From: Halorubrum sp. BOL3-1
GTDB lineage: Archaea > Halobacteriota > Halobacteria > Halobacteriales > Haloferacaceae
Length of the DNA stretch: 64,000 nt
Direction of reading: 5' to 3'
Assembly: GCF_004114375.1 (NCBI RefSeq)
Contig: NZ_CP034692.1
Coordinates: 2,418,001-2,482,000, forward strand
The position numbers and the translations under genes are program-made. This document shows, in pieces, positions 44,753-60,015 of this stretch. The notes beneath the pieces were generated by a model that saw nothing but the letters and a program-made list of their open reading frames with translations, was not told the DNA's origin and did no database searches. Numbering within the stretch: position 1 is the first letter of the stretch; each line of letters begins with the position of its first letter.

Positions 44753-45857
44753 GTGATCGTCATAATATTTGAATAGATAGGAAGCGATCTATCCATGATT
44801 CTGCGAAGCTTATCCGATCGGCGTAGTCGTGAAAGACCGAACAGATCAGTTCTCGATACCTTTCAAGATCTGACGCGTCAAGCGGTGAGAGATCACGTTT
44901 TACGCTTTTCCAGATCTGTTCGATCGGATTGAGATCCGGCGAATACCGCGGCAGTGCTACTCTGTGTAGATCGTGTTTATTTACTACCTTATCGACATAC
45001 TCGGCAAAGTGAGACGAAAAGTTATCGCAGATGAGTATGATCGGTTGATCTGAGTTCTTCTCACGTATCTTGAGGGAAAAAATCGCCCACAGATTCCTTG
45101 CTCAGATCGTCTTTACACGAGACAACGCTGGTTCCGTTCAATGCGTAAAATCCGAAGACGACATCGTCAAAGTTCGCTGTCGGCGTCTCTTTTTTCAGGG
45201 TTGGTCGGCCGAAGCTCCACAGCCGCCGGCTGTTGTCTGTTGGACGAGGCCAGGCTTCGTCGAGAAACCCGACGACGACACCGCCGTCAGTCACTGTATC
45301 GTCGTCGAGGTCGTCGAGAGCGGCCTCGAGACGCTCTTCGAGTTGTTCTTCTGCGTCGTCAGGCCGATCTGGCGACTCTGGTCGCGGGATCGCATAATTT
45401 AATCCAAGTTTATTGAGAAGTCGCGATGTATGTCGCTGAGAGTATGATACATCGAACCCATCTTCGATGAGCTGTTGAACTTGATGGGTGGTAAGTGGTT
45501 GATGCTGTTTGAGGACCTCTTGAAGCCGGTCGCGTTGGTGCTCGTCAAGTTTTGGTGGGCGCCCGTCACCAGAATCTGGTCGAAGACCGCCCACAGCGTC
45601 GTTGTTCCAGCGATCAACCCAGCGGCTCGCGGTCGGCGTCGTGACGCCGACACGTGTCGCCGCTTCCGTGAGCGTATCACCGAGATAGATATTTTTGATC
45701 AGACATAATCGCCGGACGAGATAGGGTTCTTTGTCAGATTGAGCTTGATCGATCGCCTCATCGAGTTCCTCTTCACTCAGATGTTCGAGGTAATCTTTTG
45801 ATGGTCCAGGCATAGTTCATACTCATACTCCAACATTACAAATTCTTCGACTATCAC
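44753..45857 (-). mobile_element. IS630-family insertion sequence
   Basis: A 1105-bp element. The ends are inverted: left TAGTGATCGTCATAATATTT, right (read inward) TAGTGATAGTCGAAGAATTT, with a further shared G. A TA dinucleotide flanks each end (44751-44752 and 45858-45859), which is the IS630/Tc1 target duplication. It encodes one transposase in two frames on the minus strand. The sequence on both sides joins to match repeat copy A. Confidence 0.9.
44760..45813 (-). pseudogene. IS630 transposase in two frames
   Basis: The first frame (45813-45061) encodes an N-terminal helix-turn-helix pair (EAATRVGVTTPTASRWVDRW), a linker and the first catalytic Asp in FLDEAWPRP, ending in GDFFPQDT. The second frame (about 45080-44760) continues with the second Asp in LICDNFSSH and the Glu in RYSPDLNPIEQIW. 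Joined they give about 350 residues, the normal IS630 size. The shift occurs at a run of six T (GATTTTTTCCC). One T fewer would restore a single frame. It may be a frameshift mutation or programmed +1 frameshifting. Confidence 0.8.
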
Positions 45858-46895: not shown

Positions 46896-47504
46896 TCAGC
46901 GACGGAGCAGTTCGTACCACAGCACCGCGGTGACGGCTCGGCCGTCGCGCAGGCCGTCGTCGACGACCGCGGCGAGTAAGTCGTCGTACGGGACCGTCGC
47001 GACCGAAATCGACTCGTTGTGGTCCAGCTCGCGCTCGGCGGTCGGCTCGCAGCCGGTCGCGAGCACGTGGTGGTGGACCGCGTTCGCCATCCCGTTCGTC
47101 GGCTCGACGGTCGTCAGCCGCTCGAAGGAATCGGCCTCGTATCCGGTCTCCTCGGCCAGCTCGCGGGCCGCGGCGCGCTCGATCCCCGCCTCCTCGTCCC
47201 CGTCTTCCGGCTCCATCGTCCCCGCGGGGATCCCGCGGTTCACCCGGCCGACGGCCTGCCGCCACTCGTCGATGACGACGACGTCGCCGTCGGGCGTCAG
47301 CGGAAGTACCACCACCGCGGGCGGCTCGTCGACGTAGTGGAACCCGTCGGTCTCGCCGTCCGGGAACCGCACCTCGTCCCGGCGCACGTCGAAGCCGGGG
47401 CAGGCGTAATCGACCGCGGAGTCGAGCGTCTCCCACGAGAGGTCGGCTGCGTCGTCGGCGTCGTCGGCGTCGGCGGGGTCGTCGAGGTCGTCGGCGTCGT
47501 CCAT
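46896..47504 (-). CDS. NUDIX hydrolase
   Basis: A 202-residue pyrophosphohydrolase. The NUDIX box is GIERAAARELAEETGYEADS with the REL-x-EE core. The preceding VVVIDEWRQAVGR and following region resemble ADP-ribose pyrophosphatases. An acidic N-terminal extension (residues 1-25, Asp/Ala) is present. I chose MDDADD at 47504; nine extra codons upstream are possible. Substrate unproven. Confidence 0.88.
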   Translation of the reverse strand: MDDADDLDDPADADDADDAADLSWETLDSAVDYACPGFDVRRDEVRFPDGETDGFHYVDEPPAVVVLPLTPDGDVVVIDEWRQAVGRVNRGIPAGTMEPEDGDEEAGIERAAARELAEETGYEADSFERLTTVEPTNGMANAVHHHVLATGCEPTAERELDHNESISVATVPYDDLLAAVVDDGLRDGRAVTAVLWYELLRR

Positions 47505-47552
47505 GGATCGCGGTCGTCGCTCGGGAGGCAAAACCCACTCGCTCGTTCGCGG

Positions 47553-48029
47553 TTACTCTCCCCGCGTTGTCGACGCCGCCGCCGACGCGCCCCGTCGCTC
47601 CCGGACGCGGTCGACCGCAACCGCGGCGAGGGTCCCGACGAGCCACGCGACCGTCCCGAAGACCAGCGCCTCGACGCCGAGGAAGACGAGGCCGTCGGGC
47701 GAGAGGAAGGCGGCCGCGCGCTCGACGAGGGACCGACCGGAGAGCCCGAGGAAGGAGTGGTTCGCGCTGTACCCGAGCAGCGCGGCGTAGACGGTGAGCC
47801 ACGCGGGGATCAGGCCGTCCCGTCGGTACGCGAGCGCGACGGCAGCGACGACGCCGAGCGCCGCGGCGTCGAACGGGACGAACACCACGCCGCCGGCGAT
47901 GGCGAAGACGCCGACCGCGTAGGCGGCGAAGACGACGGCGAAACACAGCGGCGGTGCGACGAGTCGGGCGGACGGACGCGACCGCTCCCGGCTCGATCCG
48001 AGGAGGGCCGCGCGGAGGGCGGAGGCCAT
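47553..48029 (-). CDS. Four-helix membrane protein of unknown function
   Basis: A 158-residue protein with membrane helices near residues 24-46, 52-66, 73-92 and 118-140. The chosen ATG (48029) gives a short basic N-terminus. The frame extends upstream only as antisense of dinB. It follows dinB after 46 bases on the same strand, so it may be co-transcribed. No family recognised. Confidence 0.6.
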   Translation of the reverse strand: MASALRAALLGSSRERSRPSARLVAPPLCFAVVFAAYAVGVFAIAGGVVFVPFDAAALGVVAAVALAYRRDGLIPAWLTVYAALLGYSANHSFLGLSGRSLVERAAAFLSPDGLVFLGVEALVFGTVAWLVGTLAAVAVDRVRERRGASAAASTTRGE

Positions 48030-48075
48030 GCGACGCCGTTCTCGGGCCGTCCGCATAAATCTCCTCTCGGCGAGG

Positions 48076-49473
48076 TCACGACCAGTCGCCGAGCGAGGCC
48101 TGCCCGTCGCCGGTCCGGCGCTGGTCGTCGCCGCTCCCGGTGGCGGCGTCCGCACCCTCGTCGCCGCGGTCCGGCGGGCCGCCGACCCAGTCGGTGAGCT
48201 TGCCGCCGTCGCCAGCGTCGTCTCCTCGGATTCGGTCGCCGTCGCCGTCCGGCTCGAACCCGCCGAGCGTCGCCTGGTCGGTCTCCGCGAAGTCGAGCTT
48301 GGAGACGCGGACGCCCAGTTTACGGACCCGGGTCTCGTCGAACTCACCGAGCAGGTCCAGCGCCACCTCCTCGACGAGGTCCGGGTCGTCGACGGGACCG
48401 GGGAGGCTCCGGGCGCGGGTGTTGACGTCGAACGGCGGTTCGACCGCCTTGATCCCGATGGTGCGGTACAGGCAGCCCCGCTCCCGGGCGCGGCGGGCCA
48501 CGTCGGCGGCCAGCGCCGACACCGTCTCCCGCTTCGTCGCCTCGTCGGCGGTCGTCGGCAGCGCCGACTCCCGCGAGAGGCTCTTCGGGAGGCCGGTCGG
48601 CGTCACCTCGCGATCGTCGTCGCCGGCGGCGCGCCGGGATAGCTCCGGGCCGCGCTCGCCGAGGGGCTCGGCGAGCCGGTCGCGGTCTGCGGTCGCCAGG
48701 TCGCCCGCGGTCTCGACCCCCAGCTCCGCCAGTTTCCCCTCGGTGACGGGACCGACCCCGTGGACGTCGGCGGTCGGCAGCGGCGCGAGGAACCCGGCGA
48801 CGGTCCCCGGCGGCACGACGACGAGGCCGTCCGGCTTGTCGGCGTCGCTGGCGACCTTCGCGGCCGACATGTTCGGCGCGACGCCGACGCTCGCCGGGAC
48901 CCCCGCCTCGCGCTCGATGCGCCCTTTGACGTGGCGGGCGTACCCCTCCGCGAGCGTCCGCGCTTCGGCGGGACCGGCCGCGCCGCTCGGCGGCGGGTCA
49001 GCAGGGTCGTCGCCGGCGACCGTCCACGCGGTCCGGTCGGTGACGTCGAGGTACGCCTCGTCGATGCTCACCTCCCGGCGGGTGTCGGCGCAGTCGCGCA
49101 GGACGGCCTTCACCTCGCTCGCGACGTCCTCGTAGAAGCCGAGGTCGACGGGGAGGTACCGGCCGGTCTCCTCGGGGTCGGGCGCGTCGGGGTCGTCGGG
49201 GTCCGCGTCGGCGCGGCGGGGGAGCAGCTCTAAGGCCTCGGAGATCGGCATCGCGCTGTCGACGCCGAACGCTCGCGCCTCGTAGCTCGCGGTCGCGACC
49301 GCGCCGACCGACTCGCCCGGCTCGTACCCCATGCCGACCACGACGGGTTCGCCCGCGAGGTCGGGACGGCGCAGCCGCTCGCAGGAGGCGTAAAAGCAGT
49401 CCATGTCGACGTGACAGACGACCCGATCGGGCCCGTCGTCTCTCTCGTCGTGAGTGAATTTGTCCAACGACAT
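48076..49473 (-). CDS. dinB: DNA polymerase IV with element-derived 5' end
   Basis: A 465-residue Y-family polymerase for translesion synthesis. Catalytic residues are visible in CHVDMDCFYA (D23, D25) and SIDEAYLDVT. It has helix-hairpin-helix sequence (ADVHGVGPVTEGKLAELG), a little-finger domain, a long acidic tail and a PIP-like end QASLGDW. From residue 19 on the gene is chromosomal. The first 18 codons (MSLDKFTHDERDDGPDRV) come from the integrated element and replace the original MTGGRNAARETL...DERDDAPDRV start, now stranded at 56589. The frame is intact, so the enzyme is probably still made, but from an element-borne start. Confidence 0.93.
   Translation of the reverse strand: MSLDKFTHDERDDGPDRVVCHVDMDCFYASCERLRRPDLAGEPVVVGMGYEPGESVGAVATASYEARAFGVDSAMPISEALELLPRRADADPDDPDAPDPEETGRYLPVDLGFYEDVASEVKAVLRDCADTRREVSIDEAYLDVTDRTAWTVAGDDPADPPPSGAAGPAEARTLAEGYARHVKGRIEREAGVPASVGVAPNMSAAKVASDADKPDGLVVVPPGTVAGFLAPLPTADVHGVGPVTEGKLAELGVETAGDLATADRDRLAEPLGERGPELSRRAAGDDDREVTPTGLPKSLSRESALPTTADEATKRETVSALAADVARRARERGCLYRTIGIKAVEPPFDVNTRARSLPGPVDDPDLVEEVALDLLGEFDETRVRKLGVRVSKLDFAETDQATLGGFEPDGDGDRIRGDDAGDGGKLTDWVGGPPDRGDEGADAATGSGDDQRRTGDGQASLGDWS
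49333..49419. other. Left attachment repeat (att) within dinB
   Basis: An 87-bp sequence identical to 56425-56511. It encodes VCHVDMDCFYAS through GEPVVVG of polymerase IV. Beyond it, toward the element, a further 31 bases match the chromosomal version with five differences, and the encoded peptide DERDD-x-PDRV is kept. Confidence 0.92.
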
Positions 49474-49480
49474 GGATTCA

Positions 49481-49486
49481 CTCCCC
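49481..49486 (-). promoter_or_regulatory. Element-borne ribosome-binding site for dinB
   Basis: On the minus strand GGGGAG lies seven bases before the new dinB ATG (49473). It belongs to the inserted element, not to the original gene. Confidence 0.55.
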
Positions 49487-49591
49487 GTTCATCACCTCCG
49501 TATCGGTGGTCGGACGGGATAAGGGTGCGCCACCCACGATGGAAGTGGAACAGACGCCCCGTTCGTCGGCTCCCTGGCTTCGGAACACCCA

Positions 49592-50623
49592 ATGTCCAAG
49601 TTAGAACCCATCACGCCACGGGACGCATTAGAACTGTATTGCGACGACATGGAGGGGGAACTATCCCCAAACTCCGTCCGACAGAAACGGTATCAACTCT
49701 CCAAGTTCGTTGAGTGGTGCGAGGGAATAAACGCCGACGACCCACGGATTGAGAACCTCAATAATATCACGGGCAGAGACTTCACCCGCTTCAAGAATTG
49801 GCGTAGCGAGGGGATCAACAAAGTCACGCTGCGGACGAATCTCTCGGCGCTACGGTCGTTCATGCGCTTTTGCGTCTCCGTTGATGGTGTTGACCCTGTA
49901 ATCCCTCAGAAGATCAACGTGCCGACGTTAGATACCTCTGAGAACCACAACAGCGAACACATTAGCGCCGATGAAGCAACGGAGATTCTGAGCTACCTGA
50001 ATCAATTTGAGTATGCGTCAATGGATCATGTGCTGTTCAAGCTCCAATGGACCACTTCCATGCGAATGAGTGGGTTACACAGTCTCGATGTCGGGGATGT
50101 CGACGCCGCAGAGAGGACGCTTTCAGTCGTCCACCGCCCCGATCAGGGAAGCCGACTGAAGAACGCCGACGACGGCGAACGTGTCGTGACAGTCGACGCA
50201 GAGACGGCGAGAGTCGTCGCTGATTACATCGAACACAAGCGGACACCCGTTGAGGACGACCACGGTCGTCGCCCACTGTTCTGTTCACGATACGGGCGTA
50301 TGTCGAAACAGAACCTCAATAAGCGGATCTACCGTGTTACGTCTCCCTGCTATACGTCTCGGGGATGTCCGTCCGACAAAGACCCACAACAGTGCGAACA
50401 CGCAGGCTCCTATGACAACTACGTTACCTGTCCGCACAATATCCGCCCCCACGCGATTCGGGGCGGGAGCATTACGTACTGGTTACGCAACGACGTTCCG
50501 AAGCAAGCAGTCGGAGATCGGGTTAACGCTTCGATGAAAACCCTATCACGGCATTACGACGAGCGGAGTGAACAGGAAAAGGCGGAACAGAGACGGGACT
50601 TCTTCGAGAACGACGAGACGTAA
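49592..50623 (+). CDS. Tyrosine recombinase (XerC/D-like integrase)
   Basis: A 343-residue recombinase. The N-terminal SAM-like core-binding domain covers about residues 8-110, with LYCDDMEGELSPNSVRQKRY. The catalytic domain has Arg in SMRMSGLHSLD, a Lys in SRLKNADDGE, HAIR (HxxR) and the nucleophile Tyr in SRHYDERS. A cysteine cluster (CYTSRGC, QQC, TCPH) just before the HxxR box is typical of one haloarchaeal integrase family and may bind metal. It lies 172 bases inside the left repeat, the usual integrase position. A T-rich run follows its stop. Confidence 0.93.
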   Translation: MSKLEPITPRDALELYCDDMEGELSPNSVRQKRYQLSKFVEWCEGINADDPRIENLNNITGRDFTRFKNWRSEGINKVTLRTNLSALRSFMRFCVSVDGVDPVIPQKINVPTLDTSENHNSEHISADEATEILSYLNQFEYASMDHVLFKLQWTTSMRMSGLHSLDVGDVDAAERTLSVVHRPDQGSRLKNADDGERVVTVDAETARVVADYIEHKRTPVEDDHGRRPLFCSRYGRMSKQNLNKRIYRVTSPCYTSRGCPSDKDPQQCEHAGSYDNYVTCPHNIRPHAIRGGSITYWLRNDVPKQAVGDRVNASMKTLSRHYDERSEQEKAEQRRDFFENDET

Positions 50624-51350
50624 CGCAGATATACTTTTTCTTAGTATAATAGATATACATACGCATACTTACTATACTCTGACGGGGTGAATTTCCCCCT
50701 CTCTCTGTAACCCAACAGACGGCCTCTCAACGGTTTCTCACCGAGAGGATGGATACCCCTTGGAGCCGAATCAAGCCGCTCTATGACCGCTCTGAGACGC
50801 CACAGAGACAAGAATATGGCTCCACAGAGATACCACGGAACGGCTTGGTTCATCGTTGCTTCGATACTCCGTGAATCACCGAAACCACCAGACTCCAAAG
50901 GTATCCATATAGACCGTCTGAGTGTAATTCTAAGCCGTTTTTGTCACGAGATGATTAATACCATTTAGAGACAATTCAAATCGATTCTGACGGCACACAG
51001 ATGGTATATGATTAATTCTGAGACTACTCTGTGACTGACCGAGAGAGTTGAACCGAGACTCGGGGAGTGTGTGAACTGTTCTCAATCTGCGACGCTAATA
51101 GAAATATCCGCTCTGTCACAGCAGTAGGTGTAAGGTTACGCCTCCGTTCCTCGATTGGTCCCCCCCACTCGGTAGTTGTAGTAACAAGTAACTACAACAT
51201 ACCTTCGAGGGGGACACAATCTGCGGTACTCGGCGGTAACCGTTATAGAGAAATCCTCTATGGGATTGTCGTGGAGGGGGTGTCGTTGGTGAGGGTAACT
51301 CGGTGGGGAGGGATACCCGATAGGAGTAAATCACGGAGAGGGGTTCTCTC
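50624..51350. other. Gene-free part of the element
   Basis: About 730 AT-rich bases with only short frames and no recognisable protein. A run CTTTTTCTT (50633-50641) may end the integrase transcript. A 41-codon frame starting near the ATG at 50750 (MDTPWSRIKPLYDRS) is possible but unsupported. It contains the palindrome at 51175-51198. A replication origin or regulatory region would fit this place, but no repeat array is seen. Confidence 0.35.
51175..51198. repeat. Near-perfect 24-bp palindrome in the element
   Basis: The arms GTTGTAGTAAC (51175-51185) and GTAACTACAAC (51188-51198) are complementary at ten of eleven positions, around AA. It is about 150 bases before the small ORF at 51351. 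It could be an operator, origin or recombinase accessory site. Confidence 0.6.
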
Positions 51351-51536
51351 GTGACAAATTCTGCGTTAGAAGCCGTCGTAATTTTATTACTCGTGGAAAT
51401 GCTATATGTTGATATGCTGTCGGAAACTGAGGAGATCGCGTTCCAAGCGGCTCGAGATATGGGAGCCGTTGTCACAAAACACGAAGCCCGTCGTCGGCTC
51501 GACCGTGCCGAAGCAGACAATATATATGAAAACTGA
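51351..51536 (+). CDS. Small protein of the element
   Basis: A 61-codon frame starting with GTG. Alternative ATG starts inside give about 46 residues (MLYVDMLSETEEI). The C-terminal part is amphipathic and charged (ARDMGAVVTKHEARRRLDRAEADN). It could be a small regulator, but there is no family match and the start is uncertain. Confidence 0.4.
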   Translation: MTNSALEAVVILLLVEMLYVDMLSETEEIAFQAARDMGAVVTKHEARRRLDRAEADNIYEN

Positions 51537-51844
51537 TAGTCTAATAAAATCTGATATATTTTCAGTATGAGAACGGGGATAGTACGGGGCGTAGTGTAGC
51601 CCCCAGTGTAGCCCCGTGAGGGGCGGGTGTCCGTGGCCGTAGGCCCCAGTATGGCTCGCCCATGGGTGTCGGTGAGGTGGTCGCGTATGCCCGCCTATGG
51701 GGTTGGCCTGTCAAAGTGAATAGACCGAGATCACAGGAAAGTCGGGACAGGGGGTACGCCGTTCGTCTCCATTGTCGTCGTCGCCCACGCGCTATGTGAG
51801 CGATTAAAACGAATAGACGAAAGTTCCGCTGGATCGGGGGCAGA
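51537..51844. other. Gene-free stretch with a GNRA hairpin
   Basis: About 300 bases between the small ORF and the 3' end of the nuclease gene. A direct repeat AGTGTAGCCCC occurs twice (near 51593 and 51605). The second copy forms a hairpin GCCCC-GTGA-GGGGC (51611-51624). It may be a terminator region for the converging genes or part of a structured RNA. I see no protein gene. Confidence 0.4.
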
Positions 51845-53578
51845 TTAACCACTTTTCTCCAACAGACCGAGAAACTCGTACCGAATATCCCATGGAATAT
51901 GAATGTTAGCAGGAATCTCCGTACCAATAACAATGTACTCCCGTTCGTTCAGCTGATCCATAGCAGCCTTTGCCTTCTGAATCACTTGATGACGGTCGTA
52001 TAGGTGACCTTTCACCTCAATAACATACTTATTTGTGACAAAATCTGGTGTGTATGTTCGACCATTGCCGTAACTGATCTCCATCGATTCGTATTCATAA
52101 TCAATATCCGCGTTTAGAAGCATTTCAGCAACGTCTATTTCCCACGTGGAGCGGACAATATGGTCCAAATGTTCGGGGTCGTATTTTTTATTCGGGTCGA
52201 ATCCAGATGCTACGATAGCACTACTCCATGACCCGAATCTCTGTGTATACACTGACCCGCTAAATGCGCCGTTTTCATTCATGTCACTTCGCGTCGGTGT
52301 TCTACCCAGTTCCTCACCGAGGTGCTTGAGTTCCTCAATTAGATCTGACCGAGGGATATCCCGTCGTTCGGTCGGCTCAATGTCTGCTGCTTTGAGAGCC
52401 TCGTTCCACGTATCAAAAGTAGACATGTGAGTCGTTGAATCAAACTGGCCGTACCGATCCATATCTCGTCGCCCTGGCGTCCTGCCAACTTGCTCTTGGA
52501 CTGATTTGAGTTCAGTAATCAACTCTGATCGAGGTATATTTGTTCGGTTATTAATGTCGAATCCAGCCTCACGGAGAGTAGCATTCCAAGACCCGAAGGC
52601 CGTTCTGTATGTTGCCCACCCAAATTCACCATCCCTTTCCATCTCGACAGCTGTTGGCGTATGGCCGATCTCGTCGGCCAATCGACTTATTTCTCGCAGC
52701 AGCTCGGGCTTTGGGATATCATTCCGATTATTGGGAGCAAAACCAGCCTCTCGGAGAGCTTCGTTCCATGAACCAAATGACCTGTTGTACGTTGTGACCG
52801 CGAAGCGCCCGTACTGGCTCATCTCACTTGCCGTGGGGACTTTCTTATGTTCTCTTTTCAGCCGTTGTATCTCATCAAGTAGGTCCGAATCGTCTATGTT
52901 ACCTTCTTTATTCGTTCCGAGGTTTGCTTCTCTTAGTGCTTCGTTCCATGATCCGAATTCGGTAGAGTACGTGCTTGCGCCGAACTGACCCCGTTCTTCC
53001 ATCTGATGAACTGTTGGCGGCTCACCGAGGTCATCAGCGAGCCGTTGGAGTTCATCTATCAGTTTCGAGGCTGGTATTTCTCTCTGTTTTCCTAATTCAA
53101 GCCCTGCCTCCTGAATGGCTGAATTCCACGTTCCAAACGCGATAGAATACGTAGATGGAGCGTAGTTCCCTTTCTCAGCCATATCTCGCGAGGTTGGAGT
53201 TTCACCGATTTTGTCATAAAGTCGCCTCAATTCAGCTAGGAGTTCGGAGTCTGTTACGGAGGATTGCTTATTTACGGACAGATCGGCCTGTCTAAGTGAC
53301 TCATTCCACGAGCCGAACTTATCCTGGTACGTTTTTACCGAAAATCTACCACACTGGTTCATGTCACGCTGAGTAGGAGCACTCTCTTGTTCAGTAGCAA
53401 GTTTTTGAAGTTCCTCGATCATAGCCTCCTTAATTTCATCTTCAGAGTGGGATTTGCCCCTATGAATCCCCCTACCCTTGTTTGAGTCGAAGACCCTACC
53501 ACAGATTTCACAATTAAACGTCTCTTCTTTGCTCCCCGAGTCTGGTAGAAACTCGGAGATAGAAGTCTGGTTTTTCAT
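51845..53578 (-). CDS. Zinc finger, 7x HNR repeat, PD-(D/E)XK nuclease
   Basis: A 577-residue protein. Residues 23-44 form a C2H2 finger (C23, C26, H39, H44). Residues 49-468 are seven repeats of exactly 60 residues. Their conserved Trp lies at 91, 151, 211, 271, 331, 391 and 451, with a TP(T) turn, a Met, a TY pair and FGSWN-x-ALREAG in most. This is the homing-endonuclease-associated repeat (HNR). Residues about 470-577 are a nuclease-like domain with E485, PD at 511-512 and EVK at 521-523, the PD-(D/E)XK triad. HNR repeats are predicted DNA-binding units, so the protein is probably a site-specific endonuclease. The target and role (homing, defence or element maintenance) are unknown. Confidence 0.85.
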   Translation of the reverse strand: MKNQTSISEFLPDSGSKEETFNCEICGRVFDSNKGRGIHRGKSHSEDEIKEAMIEELQKLATEQESAPTQRDMNQCGRFSVKTYQDKFGSWNESLRQADLSVNKQSSVTDSELLAELRRLYDKIGETPTSRDMAEKGNYAPSTYSIAFGTWNSAIQEAGLELGKQREIPASKLIDELQRLADDLGEPPTVHQMEERGQFGASTYSTEFGSWNEALREANLGTNKEGNIDDSDLLDEIQRLKREHKKVPTASEMSQYGRFAVTTYNRSFGSWNEALREAGFAPNNRNDIPKPELLREISRLADEIGHTPTAVEMERDGEFGWATYRTAFGSWNATLREAGFDINNRTNIPRSELITELKSVQEQVGRTPGRRDMDRYGQFDSTTHMSTFDTWNEALKAADIEPTERRDIPRSDLIEELKHLGEELGRTPTRSDMNENGAFSGSVYTQRFGSWSSAIVASGFDPNKKYDPEHLDHIVRSTWEIDVAEMLLNADIDYEYESMEISYGNGRTYTPDFVTNKYVIEVKGHLYDRHQVIQKAKAAMDQLNEREYIVIGTEIPANIHIPWDIRYEFLGLLEKSG

Positions 53579-53746
53579 ATAAAATTAATCAGTTACATTG
53601 ACATCTATCTGAACGCTTGTAATTGTCACGGCCAACTGCCTGCTCACTGCTATATTCACCATAGATTGTTGGGTCAGGATACGGACATAGGGATGCCCTC
53701 ATAAGGGTTACCACAGTGCTCGTCTAGACCTAATATACCCGCCCCC

Positions 53747-53833
53747 ATGCCACCTGTCCGACTCATAGCCGAGTGGTGGCGAAAACCGAACGGTGAGGTT
53801 GTTGAGGTAGTCGTCGGCGCGTTCCTCTGGTAA
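53747..53833 (+). CDS. Possible 28-residue ORF
   Basis: MPPVRLIAEWWRKPNGEVVE followed by VVVGAFLW. A TAATATA box lies about 17 bases upstream, close for a leaderless start. It is divergent from the nuclease gene. The peptide is well balanced, with an amphipathic look, but too short to judge. Confidence 0.25.
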   Translation: MPPVRLIAEWWRKPNGEVVEVVVGAFLW

Positions 53834-54088
53834 GCCGTCAGACGATACCTATCCTTTCGGTACTACCCCCACAGTCTATCGGGGGAGATCACCGATCCAC
53901 GCCCCTGATTGAACCCACCAATAGTGGTGTATCTCCATTTGCGGGAATGTGGGGAGAGTCGCAAATCTTTGTCCTATTCCACAACTAACGTTCGTGGAAC
54001 AAAGCCGATATTCGTCTGTTTTACCTGTTTAAATTGCGGCTTCCTACTAACCGCAAACACTATTGTGGTGGCATCGAGTGGTAAAGCC

Positions 54089-54676
54089 GTGAATCTCAAA
54101 CAACACGACACCACGGACGGAATGAAGGTATGGCTCTCGGAGTCAGATACCGAACGGTTACTCGATACTGCCGAGACGACGGAACAACGGATCGCCTTTG
54201 CCCTAGCTGTTCGGTGTGGTCTTCGGTCCCACGAGGTACTACAGGTGTCGCCGTCAGACGTTGTTGAGACGGACGCAGGGGCGATGTTGACCGTGGAGCA
54301 TGGGAAAGGTGACAAGTACCGAGAAACGCCGCTGCCGCCGACTCTGCGGACGCAGATAGAGACTGTCGATGACATGCGAGACGACGACAGCACCGTCCCA
54401 ATTATCTCCGTAACGACCACACAATCACTACGCAATTGGATTCAATCGGCTCGGGAGACACTTGCCGACGAGACAGACGACGACCGATGGACGAACGTGT
54501 CGTTCCACGACTTACGTCGAACGTGGGCAACGTCGTTGGCGTCAAAGGACGTTGACCCGTTGGTAGTGTGTAACTGGGGCGGGTGGTCGGATCTCGATAC
54601 GTTCTTAGAACACTACAAGGGGACGTATTCACCCGAAGCGCAGCAACGGGAACGTGGAAAAGTTGAGTGGCTATAG
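54089..54676 (+). CDS. Second tyrosine recombinase, short catalytic-domain form
   Basis: A 195-residue recombinase from GTG at 54089 (NLKQHDTTDGMKVWLSESD). Catalytic residues: Arg in RCGLRSHEVL, Lys in GKGDKYRETPLP, HDLRR (HxxR), Trp in NWGGWSDL and nucleophile Tyr in HYKGTYSPE. It lacks a full core-binding domain, like other short haloarchaeal integrases I remember. The frame extends upstream to 53909 without recombinase features. It is distinct from the first recombinase in sequence and domain length. Confidence 0.85.
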   Translation: MNLKQHDTTDGMKVWLSESDTERLLDTAETTEQRIAFALAVRCGLRSHEVLQVSPSDVVETDAGAMLTVEHGKGDKYRETPLPPTLRTQIETVDDMRDDDSTVPIISVTTTQSLRNWIQSARETLADETDDDRWTNVSFHDLRRTWATSLASKDVDPLVVCNWGGWSDLDTFLEHYKGTYSPEAQQRERGKVEWL

Positions 54677-54783
54677 TATCCGTTTGAAATCACGCCTGAT
54701 AATCTAAACGGGAGTTATAAATGCTCTCGTGACGATTGTTTAGGTAGACACTCACCGTAAGGTAGTGTCGTAGAAATACGACA

Positions 54784-55203
54784 ATGATACAAAAAATCAA
54801 CACAATGCTGAACGATGATAGGGGCGTTTCACCTGTCATAGGTGTTATACTTATGGTTGCTATTACCGTGATTCTGGCCGCGGTAATCGGAACCTTCGTC
54901 CTCGGACTTGGTGACCAACTTGGAGATAGCCAGCCAACAGCGCAGTTGGACGTGAGCAGCAACGCTACTGCCGATAATATTACAATTAATCATAACGGCG
55001 GAGACCGACTCACAGTTAGTGATCTGAGGATTGAGGTTGCTGGAACTGACGAGACTTCCGCATTTACAGGTACTGTAACTGGTGACAATGTCAGCGTTGG
55101 CGACTCAGTGACATTTACTGCTGGTGGAGGCTTCAGTGAGGGAGACAGGCTTGTGATTGTCCACGAACCGTCCGACTCGATCCTCTTCGAACGGGAGCTC
55201 TAA
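54784..55203 (+). CDS. Type IV pilin carried on the element
   Basis: A 139-residue pilin. The short signal ends DDRG, followed by [20 protein letters not shown], the signature of archaeal type IV pilins (prepilin peptidase cuts after the Gly). The C-terminal domain is small and beta-rich with sequons (SNAT, NIT, NVS). A TTATAAA box lies about 70 bases upstream (near 54715). No pilus ATPase or platform gene is on the element, so it would use the host machinery. Confidence 0.9.
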
Positions 55204-55247
55204 CGCGGAGAGAGACAAGGCGTATATTTTCTTTTTTGAAATCTAAT

Positions 55248-56054
55248 ATGTGCTCCCTCGTCGATGAGGTGGATCTCGCGAGGACGTACAATCATCCGAG
55301 CAAAGATCCGTGGGAGGCAGTCATGCTTTGGCGAGAGGGTTCAAAGAAACCAGATAACTGGGGATCACAACGGGTTGCGACTGCGATTAATCGTGATCCA
55401 AATAACGATTTTGAAGGAGTGACACGCGGCGAGATTCGAGCGTGGGTGGATGACGGTGGCATGCCTGATGCTGCCCATGCTGTACAGACAGCCCGTGAAC
55501 TTGGCTGGAATGGTGACACATGGACTGATGCCGTTCGTGGAATAGCGAGGTTGGTAATCGGGGTCTATGCGTTCGGCTCGGTTAATGAGCGAAATTTCGC
55601 ACCTTCTTGGAGTCCCGACAATCCCGATAGTGAGATGGCCATTCAGGACGCACTCAATTCGGTTGGTGTCGGTCATCAACACGTTGAACGGGACAATTCA
55701 AAACAAGGGAACGAAATTCGACCCACCACACACGCAACACGGCTTGGTCGGGCACTTGTCGTTGCTGGCGCACCTGTCAGCAACAAGAACAAGACCTCTA
55801 TCGTCGCGCTCCCTGACTGGGTTGACGACGCGCCAATAGAACTGAAAACGGAGTTAGCCTTACTCTTTGTTCAAGATCGTAGTGTCGTGTATCAAGGGAA
55901 AGCAACTCGACGGATCCAGACTGATCGCAGACAGAGTTACTTTGAGGATATTGCTAAACTGATTACTGACGTGACTGGTGAGCAAGTGACCGCCAGTGAT
56001 ACGGGTGTCACAATCTCCGCTGCCGCCGTTCGGAAATTAGACCTGGTTAACTGA
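55248..56054 (+). CDS. Element protein of unknown function, possible DNA-binding
   Basis: A 268-residue soluble protein from the ATG at 55248; a TTG four codons upstream is possible. The N-terminal 75 residues look like a helix-turn-helix module (WGSQRVATAINRD, VTRGEIRAWVDDGGMPDA). The rest has a pattern loosely like LAGLIDADG-type endonuclease folds (RLGRALVVAGAPVSNKNKT, ALPDWVDDAP), but the catalytic LAGLIDADG helices are not visible. It could be an element regulator. It follows the pilin after 44 bases and may share its transcript. Confidence 0.5.
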   Translation: MCSLVDEVDLARTYNHPSKDPWEAVMLWREGSKKPDNWGSQRVATAINRDPNNDFEGVTRGEIRAWVDDGGMPDAAHAVQTARELGWNGDTWTDAVRGIARLVIGVYAFGSVNERNFAPSWSPDNPDSEMAIQDALNSVGVGHQHVERDNSKQGNEIRPTTHATRLGRALVVAGAPVSNKNKTSIVALPDWVDDAPIELKTELALLFVQDRSVVYQGKATRRIQTDRRQSYFEDIAKLITDVTGEQVTASDTGVTISAAAVRKLDLVN

Positions 56055-56424
56055 GGCGGAGAATATCTCAGTTGATTTGTGGTCTTATCTCAGATCTAAT
56101 CCCTCACGTCCCTCACCGTAGGGGCTATTCCGAAGCGTGTGTCGAGGCGGTCGCAGGGACTCGTTGCGCCAGCAACGATGTCCCAAGACCCGCCCGACCG
56201 CGCGTATTTCCCTCTCTCCTAACAACGAATCACCGCCTAACAACCGTCTCTCTATGAGTATCGGGTAATTCGTGTGTGTTGACTCATGTAACGATGGGGT
56301 AGTTTCAATTGAGAGGCTTCCATAGACACACGAGAAGTCAGGGACGACGAACGGGCAAGACGAAAACGCACGTCGTGTGCGTAAACTCCACACGAAACAC
56401 TGGGGCTACCTAACAGCAAAACCC
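56055..56424. other. Right end of the element, no gene, with a hairpin
   Basis: A 370-base stretch with short frames only. At 56156-56184 a stem-loop has arms GGGACTCGTTGC and GCAACGATGTCCC (one bulged base, loop GCCA). It may be a terminator or a recombination-associated structure near the right repeat. Confidence 0.45.
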
Positions 56425-56589
56425 GCCGACCACGACGGGTTCGCCCGCGAGGTCGGGACGGCGCAGCCGCTCGCAGGAGGCGTAAAAGCAGTCCATGTCG
56501 ACGTGACAGACCACGCGGTCGGGCGCATCGTCTCTCTCGTCGCCAGCGCCCGGGAGCGTCTCCCTGGCGGCGTTTCTCCCGCCTGTCAT
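56410..56589 (-). pseudogene. Stranded original 5' end of dinB
   Basis: On the minus strand an ATG at 56589 opens MTGGRNAARETLPGAGDERD, continues DAPDRVVCHVDMDCFYASC across the right repeat, then runs into the element and stops after GGFCC at 56410. It is the native start of dinB, separated from the rest by the insertion. It could still be translated as a 59-residue fragment. Confidence 0.85.
56425..56511. other. Right attachment repeat (att)
   Basis: An exact copy of 49333-49419 (87 bp). To its right is the native dinB start and promoter; to its left the element. Crossing over here would regenerate the unbroken original dinB. Confidence 0.92.
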
Positions 56590-56715
56590 CGCATTCGGCT
56601 CCGCGCTCCGCGGACTTAAGAACCGGCCACGCGCGCCGGAAGCGAACCCCGTCTCGCGTCGCTTCCCCGCTCCGTCCCGCGCTCAGATCCAGATCCGATA
56701 GTCGGGTCGGTAGTG

Positions 56716-56722
56716 TTTATCC
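56716..56722 (+). promoter_or_regulatory. TATA box of the sensor kinase gene
   Basis: TTTATCC centred about 26 bases before the ATG at 56744, which suggests a leaderless transcript. Confidence 0.5.
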
Positions 56723-56743
56723 CGTGCGCCCGTACGCTCAGGC

Positions 56744-58528
56744 ATGTACGCAGCGATCGACGTGCTACACGTCGACGACGACCCGTCAGTCCTCGACCTC
56801 GCGGAGGCGTACTTCGAGCGAGAGCTCGACTCGGTGGCGGTGACGAGCGTGACGGATCCGGAGACCGCGCTGGAACGGCTCGACGACGCCTCCTTCGACT
56901 GCGTCGTCAGTGACTACGACATGCCGCCGATGAACGGGTTGGAGTTCTTTGACGCGCTGCGCGAGCGCGACCAGAAGACCCCGTTCGTGTTGTACACCGG
57001 GAAGGGCTCCGAGGAGATCGCGAGTCAGGCGCTCAACGCCGGCGTCACCGGCTACTTCCAGAAGGGCGGTCCCGACCAGCTCCGCCGGCTCGCGAACCGG
57101 GTCGACCAGGCCGTCGAGGAGTCCCGAACAAAGGAGATCGCCGACCGCTACTCGACCGTCATCGAGGCGCTCAACTATCCGGTCTACGTCGTCGACGAGG
57201 CGGGGACGTTCGAGTTCGTCAACGAGGCGTTCGCGGAGCTGACCGGCTACGACCGCGACGAGATAATCGGAAGCAAGCCCGACATAATAAAGGGCGACGA
57301 GGCGGTCGACGAGTCGGAGAACCGCCTCGGGACGATCCTCTCGAGCTCCGGGCCGGACGTCCAGCGGTTCCGCGTCGACATCGCGCCGAAGGACGGCGAG
57401 CCGATCCCCTGCCAGGACCACATGGCGGCGTTGCCGTACGAGGGCGAGTTCTTCGACGGCAGCGTCGGCATCCTCCGCGACGTCTCCGAGGGGGTGGAGC
57501 GGCGTCGGGAGCTGGAGACGAAGACGCGCGCGCTCGACGAGGCGCCCGTCGGTATCGCCGTCACGGACCCCGGACGGGAGGATAACCCGATGGTGTACGT
57601 CAACGACCGGTTCGTCGAGATGAGCGGCTATTCCCGCGAGGAGGCGATCGGCGTCAACTGCCGGCTCCTTCAGGGACCCGACACCGACGAGGAGTCGGTC
57701 CGGGAACTCCGGGAGGCGATCGACGCCGAGGAACCGACGAGCGTCGAGCTGCTGAACTACCGGAAGGACGGGTCGGAGTTCTGGAACCGGGTGAGCGTCG
57801 CGCCGATCCGCGACGTCGACGGCGAGGTCACCGAGTGGGTCGGCTTTCAGCAGGACATCACGGCGTTCAAGGAGCGCGAGGTCGCCCTCGAACGGCAGAA
57901 CGACCGGCTCGACTCCTTCGCCAGCATCGTTTCACACGACCTCCGGAACCCCCTGAACGTCGCGCAGGGGCGGGTCCAGCTGGCGCGGGACGCGTCCGGG
58001 GACGCAGAGAACCTCGACGCCGCCCTCGACGCGATCGCCCGGATGGAGTCGATCGTCGAGCGCACCCTCGCGCTCGCCCGCGAGGGGGAGACGGTCGGGG
58101 ACCCGGAGTACGTCGCCCTCGCGGACATCGCCGACGACAGCTGGTCGACCGTCGACACCGCGTCTGCGACCCTCTCGATCGAGACCGACCGCGACGTGCT
58201 CGCCGACCCGGACCGCCTCAGAAACCTCTTCGAGAACCTGATGCGCAACGCGGTCAACCACGCCGGACCGGACGTCTCGACCCGCGTCGGCGACCTCCCG
58301 GACGGGTTCTTCGTCGAGGACGACGGACCGGGGATCGACCCCGCGATCGCGGACTCACTTTTCGAGCCCGGCGAGAGCGGATCGGCGGGTAACACGGGGT
58401 TCGGACTCGCAATCGTCGAAGAGATCGCCACCGCACACGGCTGGACCGTCGAGGCGACGACGGGCGGGGACGGCGGCGCGCGGTTCGAGGTCCGCGGCGT
58501 CGACAAGCGGACGCCGGCGGCCCAGTGA
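56744..58528 (+). CDS. REC-PAS-LOV hybrid histidine kinase
   Basis: A 594-residue cytoplasmic sensor kinase. The receiver domain is at about 1-125 with phospho-acceptor D57 (VVSDYDMPP). A PAS domain covers about 132-247. A second PAS at about 265-375 has LOV features: GVNCRLLQG with C306, and flavin-contact positions N338 (LLNYRKDG), N348 (FWNRV) and Q369 (GFQQD). The kinase core has the H-box SHDLRNP (H398), N502, DDGPGI and GFGLAIVEE. LOV domains bind FMN and form a Cys adduct in blue light, so this is probably a blue-light sensor. No membrane segment is present. Confidence 0.85.
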   Translation: MYAAIDVLHVDDDPSVLDLAEAYFERELDSVAVTSVTDPETALERLDDASFDCVVSDYDMPPMNGLEFFDALRERDQKTPFVLYTGKGSEEIASQALNAGVTGYFQKGGPDQLRRLANRVDQAVEESRTKEIADRYSTVIEALNYPVYVVDEAGTFEFVNEAFAELTGYDRDEIIGSKPDIIKGDEAVDESENRLGTILSSSGPDVQRFRVDIAPKDGEPIPCQDHMAALPYEGEFFDGSVGILRDVSEGVERRRELETKTRALDEAPVGIAVTDPGREDNPMVYVNDRFVEMSGYSREEAIGVNCRLLQGPDTDEESVRELREAIDAEEPTSVELLNYRKDGSEFWNRVSVAPIRDVDGEVTEWVGFQQDITAFKEREVALERQNDRLDSFASIVSHDLRNPLNVAQGRVQLARDASGDAENLDAALDAIARMESIVERTLALAREGETVGDPEYVALADIADDSWSTVDTASATLSIETDRDVLADPDRLRNLFENLMRNAVNHAGPDVSTRVGDLPDGFFVEDDGPGIDPAIADSLFEPGESGSAGNTGFGLAIVEEIATAHGWTVEATTGGDGGARFEVRGVDKRTPAAQ

Positions 58529-58641
58529 GGCGATCGGCTCCCGCCGCGCCCGGTCGACGGCCCACTGAGAACGCCGGTCACCAACGCGTCCGGTCGTCTC
58601 TCCGCCCGAAAGCGGATCGACTCCCCCCGTTCACAAGCGCC

Positions 58642-58647
58642 TTTATG
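58642..58647 (+). promoter_or_regulatory. TATA box of MFS gene
   Basis: TTTATG centred about 26 bases before the ATG at 58670; leaderless spacing. Confidence 0.45.
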
Positions 58648-58669
58648 CTCCGTTGCGAACGCCGAGTAG

Positions 58670-59983
58670 ATGGGACTGCTCTCCGGCGTGACCGACACCG
58701 ATCGGCGCGTGATCGTGCTGGCGCTCGCGCGGATGGTCGGCGCGGTCGGGAACTCCTTTCTCATCGTCGTGCTGCCGCTGTACATCGCGAGCGACCTCGT
58801 CGACGTCGACGCGCTGATCGGGACCGACGTCGGCGTCGGCGCGGTCGCGGTCACGGTCACGGAGCCGCTGCTAATCGGGGTCGTCCTCTCGCTTTTCGGC
58901 TTCCTCAACAGCCTCTCACAGCCGTTCACGGGGCGGCTCTCCGACCGCACCGGCGTCCGCCGCCCGTTCGTATTAGTCGGAATCCTCCTCTTGGGAACCG
59001 CGAGCGGGCTCTACATCTTCGCGGACGCGTACTGGCAGCTCGTCGCGCTGCGGGCCGCACAGGGGCTGGGCGCGGCGCTCACCATCCCGGCGACGGTCGC
59101 CCTGGTCAACGAGTACGCCGCGAGCGACGCGGACCGCGGCGGGAACTTCGGCGTGTTCAACACCTTCCGGCTGATCGGGTTCGGCTTCGGTCCCGTCCTC
59201 GCGGGCGTCGTCGTCGAGGCGGGTCCATACGACCTCTCGCCGGTCGGCCTCCCGGTCCTCGACGGGTTCGACGCCGCGTTCGTCGCGGCCTGCGCCGGCG
59301 CGTACCTCAGCTTCGCGCTCGTCTACCTCCTCGTCCACGACGCGGCCGAGTCGAGCGAGGCCGGCGAGGACCTCTCGATCCGGATCCGCGGCGAGGACCG
59401 GCTGCTCGACCCCGTGTTCGCCCTCGGGTTGGCGACGGTCTCGATGGGGATGTGTATCGCGCTGTACGCCACGCTCCAGAACCAGGTGAACGTCCGGCTC
59501 GACCAGGCACCGGTGTGGTTCGGGCTCCAGTTCGCGGCCGTCACCATCGCGAACGTTCTGCTTCAGGTCCCCGTCGGACAGGCCAGCGACCGATTCGGCC
59601 GCCGGCCGTTCCTCCTCGCCGGCTTCGTCCTCCTCGTCCCGACGACGCTGCTACAGGGGATCGTCACCGACCCGCTTCTCATGACGCTGGTCCGGCTCGG
59701 TCAGGGCGTCGCGGTCGCGTTCGTGTTCGCGCCGTCGCTCGCGCTCGCGGGCGACCTCTCCCGCGAGGGGGAGTCCGGCACGACCCTGTCGGTGCTGACG
59801 ATGGGCTTCGGGTTCGGCGTCGCGCTCGGCCCGCTCGCGTCCGGGTGGCTGGTCGGCTTCGGCTTCGTCGTCCCGTTCGCCGTCGGGGCCGCGGCCGCCG
59901 CGGTCGCGCTGGTCGCGGTCGTGACGCAGGTCGAGGAGACGCTGAACGCCGACGACGAGCCGACCGCGACGGCGGCGGACTGA
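58670..59983 (+). CDS. MFS transporter
   Basis: A 437-residue major facilitator protein with twelve predicted membrane helices. The loop 2-3 motif is GRLSDRTGVRRPF and a second related motif GQASDRFGRRPF lies after helix 8. A long periplasmic or cytoplasmic insertion is present between the first two helices (about 45-62). Substrate is unknown; drug or sugar export types are possible. Confidence 0.88.
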   Translation: MGLLSGVTDTDRRVIVLALARMVGAVGNSFLIVVLPLYIASDLVDVDALIGTDVGVGAVAVTVTEPLLIGVVLSLFGFLNSLSQPFTGRLSDRTGVRRPFVLVGILLLGTASGLYIFADAYWQLVALRAAQGLGAALTIPATVALVNEYAASDADRGGNFGVFNTFRLIGFGFGPVLAGVVVEAGPYDLSPVGLPVLDGFDAAFVAACAGAYLSFALVYLLVHDAAESSEAGEDLSIRIRGEDRLLDPVFALGLATVSMGMCIALYATLQNQVNVRLDQAPVWFGLQFAAVTIANVLLQVPVGQASDRFGRRPFLLAGFVLLVPTTLLQGIVTDPLLMTLVRLGQGVAVAFVFAPSLALAGDLSREGESGTTLSVLTMGFGFGVALGPLASGWLVGFGFVVPFAVGAAAAAVALVAVVTQVEETLNADDEPTATAAD

Positions 59984-60015
59984 CTTCCGGGGGGTCGCCC
60001 TGCCGAGCCGCGGCG

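Follow-up and report, generated by a model that had tools for sequence, protein, structure and literature searches.

A putative family of dinB-specific integrated elements in haloarchaea that exchange the 5' end of their target gene

Within a stretch of 64,000 nucleotides of Halorubrum sp. BOL3-1 (NCBI RefSeq assembly GCF_004114375.1, contig NZ_CP034692.1, positions 2,418,001 to 2,482,000 of the forward strand; hereafter the window), the 5' end of dinB, the gene for a Y-family translesion DNA polymerase, is interrupted by a segment of about 7.1 kb. We consider it very probable that this segment is an integrated mobile element, a member of a dinB-specific family that swaps the 5' end of dinB for one of its own. 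The insertion point, the exchange of the start, the existence of empty sites, the recurrence in other genomes, the link between this site and one integrase clade, and a dinB that remains open under protein-level constraint can all be read from sequence comparison.

The borders are marked by an exact direct repeat of 87 bp (49333-49419 and 56425-56511), embedded in a pair of 118 nt with 96% identity and spaced by 7,092 bp. Among the matches listed for 47001-60000, it is the sole exact direct repeat of at least 18 nt with a spacing of more than 1.5 kb. The GC content of the 7,092-bp element is 51.1% versus 71.2% in the flanks. A preliminary description of this DNA, which had reported an identical 87-bp stretch of dinB on both sides of an AT-rich segment with two recombinase genes, is thus borne out, and both genes are present (Table 1). 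The product of the larger one, int, has SAM_1 and Phage_integrase domains, and R158, K190, H287, R290 and Y322 are invariant across 8 integrase sequences; we take these residues to be the R...K...HxxR...Y catalytic set of tyrosine recombinases. The element of H. salipaludis (G027) holds a gene comparable to the short second recombinase (219 amino acids). On the left, the element supplies an ATG and 18 codons, as had been stated, and the dinB reading frame is open for 465 codons from this start, in agreement with the proposal that a coding gene was entered without breaking its frame. On the right, MTGGRNAARETLPGAGDERDDAPDRV continues the repeat copy in the upstream direction; the native start (MTGGRNAARETLPGAG...) was left behind there, as described, and is now 7 kb from dinB. 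The genome contains a single dinB plus this stranded 5' fragment. With direct-repeat att sites at both ends, and with empty sites in other genomes, the segment has the features of an integrative element.

Table 1. Features of the element and of its surroundings in the window.
Feature	Position	Strand	Remarks
dinB (Y-family DNA polymerase IV)	48076..49473	-	IMS match 2.9e-36; frame opened by element-supplied start
Left 87-bp repeat copy: core plus host dinB codons	49333..49419	.	
23-bp core at attL, which encodes the Y-family catalytic motif VCHVDMDC	49397..49419	.	interval common to the exact repeats of 8 elements; G124 compatible
Element-supplied start codon and first 18 codons, MSLDKFTHDERDDGPDRV	49420..49473	-	
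Tyrosine integrase int, 343 amino acids	49592..50623	+	divergent from dinB; 118 bp between start codons; Phage_integrase
HNH_repeat protein, 7 matched stretches, C-terminal endonuclease-like domain	51845..53578	-	Pfam match
Short second tyrosine recombinase, 195 amino acids, catalytic domain only	54089..54676	+	not universal
Type IV pilin-like protein	54784..55203	+	cargo
phrog_14115 family protein	55251..56054	+	cargo
Element-side arm	56425..56488	.	64/64 identical to own host's dinB
attR copy of the 23-bp core	56489..56511	.	
Stranded native dinB start, MTGGRNAARETLPGAGDERDDAPDRV	56512..56589	-	ATG at 56587-56589
Native CTTAAG box upstream of stranded native start	56615..56620	-	position read from sequence
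Host flank gene, response regulator/PAS/kinase-like	56744..58528	+	named from own sequence only; divergent from dinB at empty sites

A dinB gene is present in all 52 genomes of the genus that were searched, and its N-terminal codons could be read in every one. In 46 of them, the DinB body directly follows a native start with the motif LPG (LLG in one), which excludes MSLDKFTH, the beginning of the window's DinB, as the normal start. The remaining six have a foreign start: the window, G027, H. salsamenti (G028), Halorubrum sp. CBA1125 (G040), G033 and G039. Furthermore, of 29 genus loci examined (L003-L031), 26 have a divergent homolog of the right-flank gene of the window at a distance of 156-246 bp from the start of the dinB match, and empty sites are therefore common. 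The homolog is missing at L012 and at the two occupied loci L019 and L030; one of the 26, L005, belongs to G039, a genome with a scar. Joining the flanks of the element restores a native-start dinB frame in all nine elements tested, although in G040 this frame is cut to 351 codons by a frameshift in the body.

The same arrangement exists at the same dinB codons in nine genomes besides the window. Altogether, ten elements from six genera and three families were seen with both ends, each with the native LPG start on one side and the element start on the other; Halorubrum sp. Atlit-26R joined the family when named genomes were scanned. The six closest integrases among the candidates scored in 392 genomes of the order (100-55% identity) all lie beside dinB, and a follow-up in the genus gave two more, in G028 and G040. 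With strict thresholds, a clade member occurs in at least 4 of 170 family genomes and at least 7 of 391 class genomes, all of them already known; about five candidates were scored per genome in the order-wide search, and about five or up to twelve in its companions, so that rarer members may be missed. A search for the core sequence, defined below, matched 242 of the 392 genomes of the order, with no match for a reversed control. Two copies occur in six of the 242, each pair flanking an element: five were known, and the sixth, G351, was in this way found independently of its integrase, which belongs to the same blastp cluster as the clade. The core beside dinB and the empty sites, for which a search in related haloarchaea had been proposed, have thus both been found. 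A second core pattern, for hosts with VDADC, matched 134 of the 392 genomes, with many hits outside dinB or unchecked and a reversed control that also matched a few genomes. It located the other end of the element of Natrinema pallidum (G124) on the next-numbered contig (C34/C35); a close pair of its hits in G236 proved on inspection not to be an element.

All nine intact integrases with at least 54% identity adjoin dinB and none has a tRNA gene as its target; a scan for tRNA genes gave none in the window and none at L080. At the 24 loci of the next tier (at most 46% identity; L038-L061, with up to about 1.5 kb of flank), dinB is found at none and a tRNA gene at eight (Ala at five, Leu at two and Ile at one; one Ala locus also has Gly). 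These tRNA genes suggest that the dinB clade arose by a switch of target. The nine dinB integrases form one group with a support of 100/100 in a tree of 33 rows without G351; this tree is midpoint-rooted and the long branch L040 joins beside the dinB clade, so that sister relations are unsure. The element of G105 (L066 4646-5640) carries a second, split integrase homolog (38-39% identity) that is oriented against the first one and may stem from a nested or decayed element.

The preliminary description had taken the 87 bp as the core of the site. This length does not hold for the crossover site, since the exact repeats of eight elements, aligned at both att sites, intersect in only 23 bp, which read GTCTGTCACGTCGACATGGACTG in dinB sense in the window and code for VCHVDMDC; the remaining 64 nt are a host-matched arm. 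The repeats of G124 (57 bp) and of G351 (read by eye) contain the same 23-bp interval. The VCHVDMDC stretch aligns with a solved DinB chain, and we take it to be the motif that holds the catalytic aspartate of Y-family polymerases. By eye, the core has near-perfect dyad symmetry, and CATGTCGACATG is perfect in G027; this symmetry is imposed by the coding sequence and hence is no evidence of selection.

On the element side, the core is often adjoined by a further 17-91 nt of repeated dinB sequence. In all seven elements with a detectable arm, among those tested (G124 was left out), the best match of the arm among all hosts compared is the dinB of its own host, with a small margin in Atlit-26R (97.0% versus 95.5%). 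No arm is present in G027, with no homology downstream of the core, or in G351, where none is detectable by blastn. G028 and G040 share a derived indel just past the core, and their downstream arms match their own hosts (47/47, and 98.9% over 91). Haloarchaea are described as polyploid (PMC7776575), and the arms are probably kept host-matched by gene conversion after integration in the polyploid cell; recent circulation within one species may be another source. The length of 87 bp is therefore not set by the integrase.

What the element gives to dinB differs among family members. Each attP-type start carries its own start codon and 17-31 codons in frame with the core. The resulting peptides fall into a [STA]LDx[FY][TA] group (window, G033, G027, G124, G039 and G143), a TL(A/G)AY group (G028, G040 and Atlit-26R) and the singletons of G105, G154 and G351. 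The upstream region is exchanged as well: a yTTAAg box is present at 44 of 46 native sites versus none of ten element-supplied upstream regions, in search windows that differ slightly between the groups, without a shuffled control and with a near match, CTTAAA, in G105. The start codons of int and dinB, which are divergent, are separated by 118 bp in the window, 102 in G027, 105 in G124, 66 in G154 and 22 in G143, and by 17 in G105, 19 in G028 and 18 in both G040 and Atlit-26R. With gaps of 17-22 bp, a dinB promoter located there would have to overlap the start of the int coding sequence. The suggestion that the element also brings a Shine-Dalgarno site was not upheld: GGAGGTG, about 26 nt before the dinB ATG, is not conserved and reads ACAGGTG in the closest relative, G033. 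A mini-ORF (open reading frame), ATG AAC GGG GAG TGA (49478-49492, minus strand), ends four bases before the element-supplied dinB ATG; G033 keeps this arrangement with other codons (MVGR*). It is possibly a leader or a coupling signal.

The element N-termini could also bear on the interaction with the sliding clamp PCNA. The sequence LxxAro, with an aromatic residue in the last position, occurs in ten of twelve element-type N-termini, which are not independent of each other, versus none of 47 native ones (46 empty sites and the stranded start of the window). The peptide concerned in the window, MSLDKFTHDERD, presumably resembles the segment of Sulfolobus Dpo4 that acts as a PCNA-interacting peptide (PIP). 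Most of the DinB C-termini listed end in a QASLGDWS-like sequence; for PolY of Haloferax, a somewhat diverged C-terminal PIP motif has been reported, the archaeal PIP consensus being QxxLxxFx (PMC7776575). The element N-termini lack the Q of this consensus, as do 34% of curated PCNA motifs (PMC6881253). As a PCNA-interaction-like motif, LxxAro is a lead and not a result. It could be imagined that the element re-engineers dinB, in that such a motif ([ST]LDx[FY]T or LxxAro) replaces the LPG segment and forms a second clamp hook in addition to QASLGDWS at the C-terminus, with dinB coupled to the integrase region by new control sequences. We regard this as quite unlikely; if true, the element would tune host mutagenesis or lesion bypass, or recruit DinB to its own replication.

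The following sequence of events would account for the structure. The tyrosine integrase would recombine attP with a 23-bp attB that encodes the DinB catalytic motif, and attP would bring a start codon and its 17-31 codons, fused in frame to the core. Integration would thereby replace the upstream region, start codon and N-terminus of dinB with those of the element and strand the native start at the far end, where excision would reconnect it to dinB. In the integrated state, dinB would be transcribed from the int-dinB gap or from the 5' end of int. Control of dinB expression by the element, which had been raised before, is plausible.

Other readings of the same structure have to be considered. 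The presence of a duplicated dinB 5' fragment could point to a local partial duplication of dinB without any mobile element. However, the two starts differ, the interval has a low GC content and contains an integrase, and the structure recurs in six genera with empty sites; since synteny at 26 of 29 loci and the recurrence in nine other genomes are incompatible with a separate duplication lacking any empty site, we give this reading practically no credence. Entry by homologous recombination, as a single crossover via a captured dinB fragment with the integrase incidental, would fit the many repeats that are long and host-matched, each detectable arm being closest to its own host. It is very unlikely in view of the elements without an arm, of the same 23-bp zone in eight elements (with two more compatible) and of a clade whose intact integrases have been found only next to dinB. 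It could further be argued that the insertion effectively inactivates or alters dinB and that the in-frame start is fortuitous or decaying. The frameshift in G040, the loss of the native LPG motif and the raised ratios of nonsynonymous to synonymous substitution (dN/dS) could be seen in this light, but dinB is full length with a clamp-motif-like C-terminus in nine of ten occupied genomes, and it is split between frames at the empty sites of G018 and G022 as well. Ten pairs that include an occupied or fossil site have dN/dS values of 0.15-0.29 for the dinB body, and the two empty-empty pairs have values of 0.17 and 0.20, thus well below 1 throughout. Constraint on the body seems to persist, perhaps slightly relaxed in some, and decay of the gene appears exceedingly improbable as an explanation.

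Finally, the element could act as a regulatory switch, in which excision and reintegration upon growth or damage toggle dinB between the native and the element promoter, as SpyCI islands do at mutL. The divergent int and dinB, with 17-118 bp between their start codons in nine elements, and the replacement of a conserved native upstream box are in line with this possibility, as is the SpyCI precedent with its promoter inside int in SpyCIM5 (PMC3430984). Two genomes argue against it. G033 contains a fossil element (L105 50-2400), of which an internal deletion took int and most of the second recombinase, and a second deletion, at the right end, removed the flank gene in part together with the native start of dinB; its dinB N-terminal frame is open as far as the contig end. 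G039 is a scar without an element, where MALDTFAHD is retained under native-looking upstream sequence. Since both have retained an element-type start although no working element is left, switching is not needed for dinB to persist, and the two genomes suggest that such a start alone can suffice for dinB. On balance, a switch is possible but unlikely.

An integrated dinB-specific element that swaps the 5' end of the gene therefore remains the preferred reading, and several points count against it. We infer that the integrase catalyses the reaction, that the element can be excised and that dinB is transcribed from the gap between int and dinB or from the 5' end of int. The element-supplied N-termini look constrained at the protein level, with per-site nonsynonymous differences (pN) of 0.22 below synonymous ones (pS) of 0.67 for the window, G027, G039 and G143, and pN 0.07 below pS 0.35 for G028, G040 and Atlit-26R, but the comparison covers only 8 codons, picked because the peptides align, and is biased towards constraint; it left out G033, which is near-identical to the window, G124, and G105, G154 and G351, which have no alignable peptide. 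The dinB of G040 is frameshifted, the int of G351 is split over two frames, and dN/dS at occupied sites reaches 0.29, somewhat above the empty sites compared. The element of G124 spans two contigs of unproven adjacency. The only gene found in all ten elements is int, with G124 entering the gene comparison in part. A dinB-clade integrase was not found on a free plasmid or phage: the best matches have 41.5% and 40.2% identity, and none exceeds 42% among the 25 plasmid and 12 phage records listed. Viral contigs gave 17 matches to an integrase profile and no relative among them, and tblastn at 1e-3 detects neither dinB nor an element protein in the 15 viral contigs with the core pattern.

The cargo is varied. 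Twenty larger cargo proteins were scanned against Pfam, most of those not named here being without a match. In G154 (L064 11183-17355), the element encodes a DUF1424 Rep next to a DUF499 protein, a DUF1156 methylase and a protein with a weak match to PglZ; PADLOC gives matches to HmaB and HmaC there, so that dinB elements may carry defence genes. Mrr nucleases are encoded in the elements of G143 and G351, and the latter also has an NrS-1 polymerase-like domain. No virion structural gene was recognised in the window element, where several proteins match PHROGs of unknown function; the element of G105 gave a weak tape-measure match from PHROGs. The HNH_repeat gene of the window is made up of tandem units of about 180 nt, of which six copies are visible as direct repeats spaced by 180 nt and seven stretches are matched by Pfam. 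Outside the element, a second dip in GC content (about 44.5-45.9 kb of the window) contains a transposase open reading frame, presumably of the IS630 family (45061-45813, minus strand).

As far as matches in the open-access literature were followed, none was found to describe dinB as a site of integration in archaea, and 'dinB' is absent from the main text of a review of archaeal recombinases (PMC8371274). The target is expected to affect mutation and damage tolerance, and the landing site consists of codons for a polymerase catalytic motif. The host can hardly alter such a core, which different genera have in common; therefore, the elements can move widely. Natural allele pairs, with native versus element N-terminus and upstream region, allow a direct measurement of the effect of the element on translesion synthesis.

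The nearest characterised relative found for the integrase is that of SNJ2, with 40.2% identity over 98% of the protein; for this one pair, the values lie within the limits given for the SNJ2-type family (at least 30% identity over at least 60%; PMC8371274). Within this type, which includes SNJ2 and HHPV4, the site of SNJ2 is given in the same review as 13 bp at a tRNA gene end, whereas the dinB clade uses a protein-coding 5' end. Archaeal elements inside coding genes are listed there as well (BJ1, Msmi-Pro1 and NitGar-E6), and they resemble the dinB elements in this respect; the review's account of them mentions no restoration of a 5' end. In bacteria, the SpyCI islands in mutL of Streptococcus pyogenes are reported as an example of integration at the 5' end of a DNA-repair gene that can control this gene, and a promoter internal to int can rescue mutL (PMC3430984; PMC4689407, PMC4129442). 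However, integrated SpyCIM1 is described as blocking mutL transcription, while the dinB elements supply a start and a frame at once.

The closest known kind is formed by the dusA islands of Proteobacteria, which, as reported, replace the dusA 5' end, bring a promoter-like sequence and a replacement strand, share only their integrase and are excised as judged by PCR (PMC4482086, Farrugia et al. 2015). The dinB arrangement had been called unusual, and this stands, but it is not without precedent, since these islands also replace the 5' end of their target. In both cases, tyrosine integrases are bound to a single site in 5' coding sequence, and the target gene receives a new in-frame 5' end while the native one is stranded. 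Both use a short, semi-conserved att site (21 bp for the dusA islands and 23 bp for the dinB elements), and in both the integrase is the sole universal gene, with variable cargo that includes restriction or defence genes. There are also differences. The dusA islands have bacterial hosts, a tRNA-modifying enzyme as target (dusA, dusB or dusC) and an excision shown by PCR, whereas the dinB elements are archaeal and target a translesion polymerase; furthermore, unlike in the dusA islands, their core encodes a catalytic motif and is often flanked by host-matched arms. The dinB elements are thus an archaeal version of the bacterial 5'-end islands, presumably with another integrase lineage (the nearest relatives found are haloarchaeal), and the replacement of the 5' end of a housekeeping gene, as described for the dusA islands, also exists in archaea.

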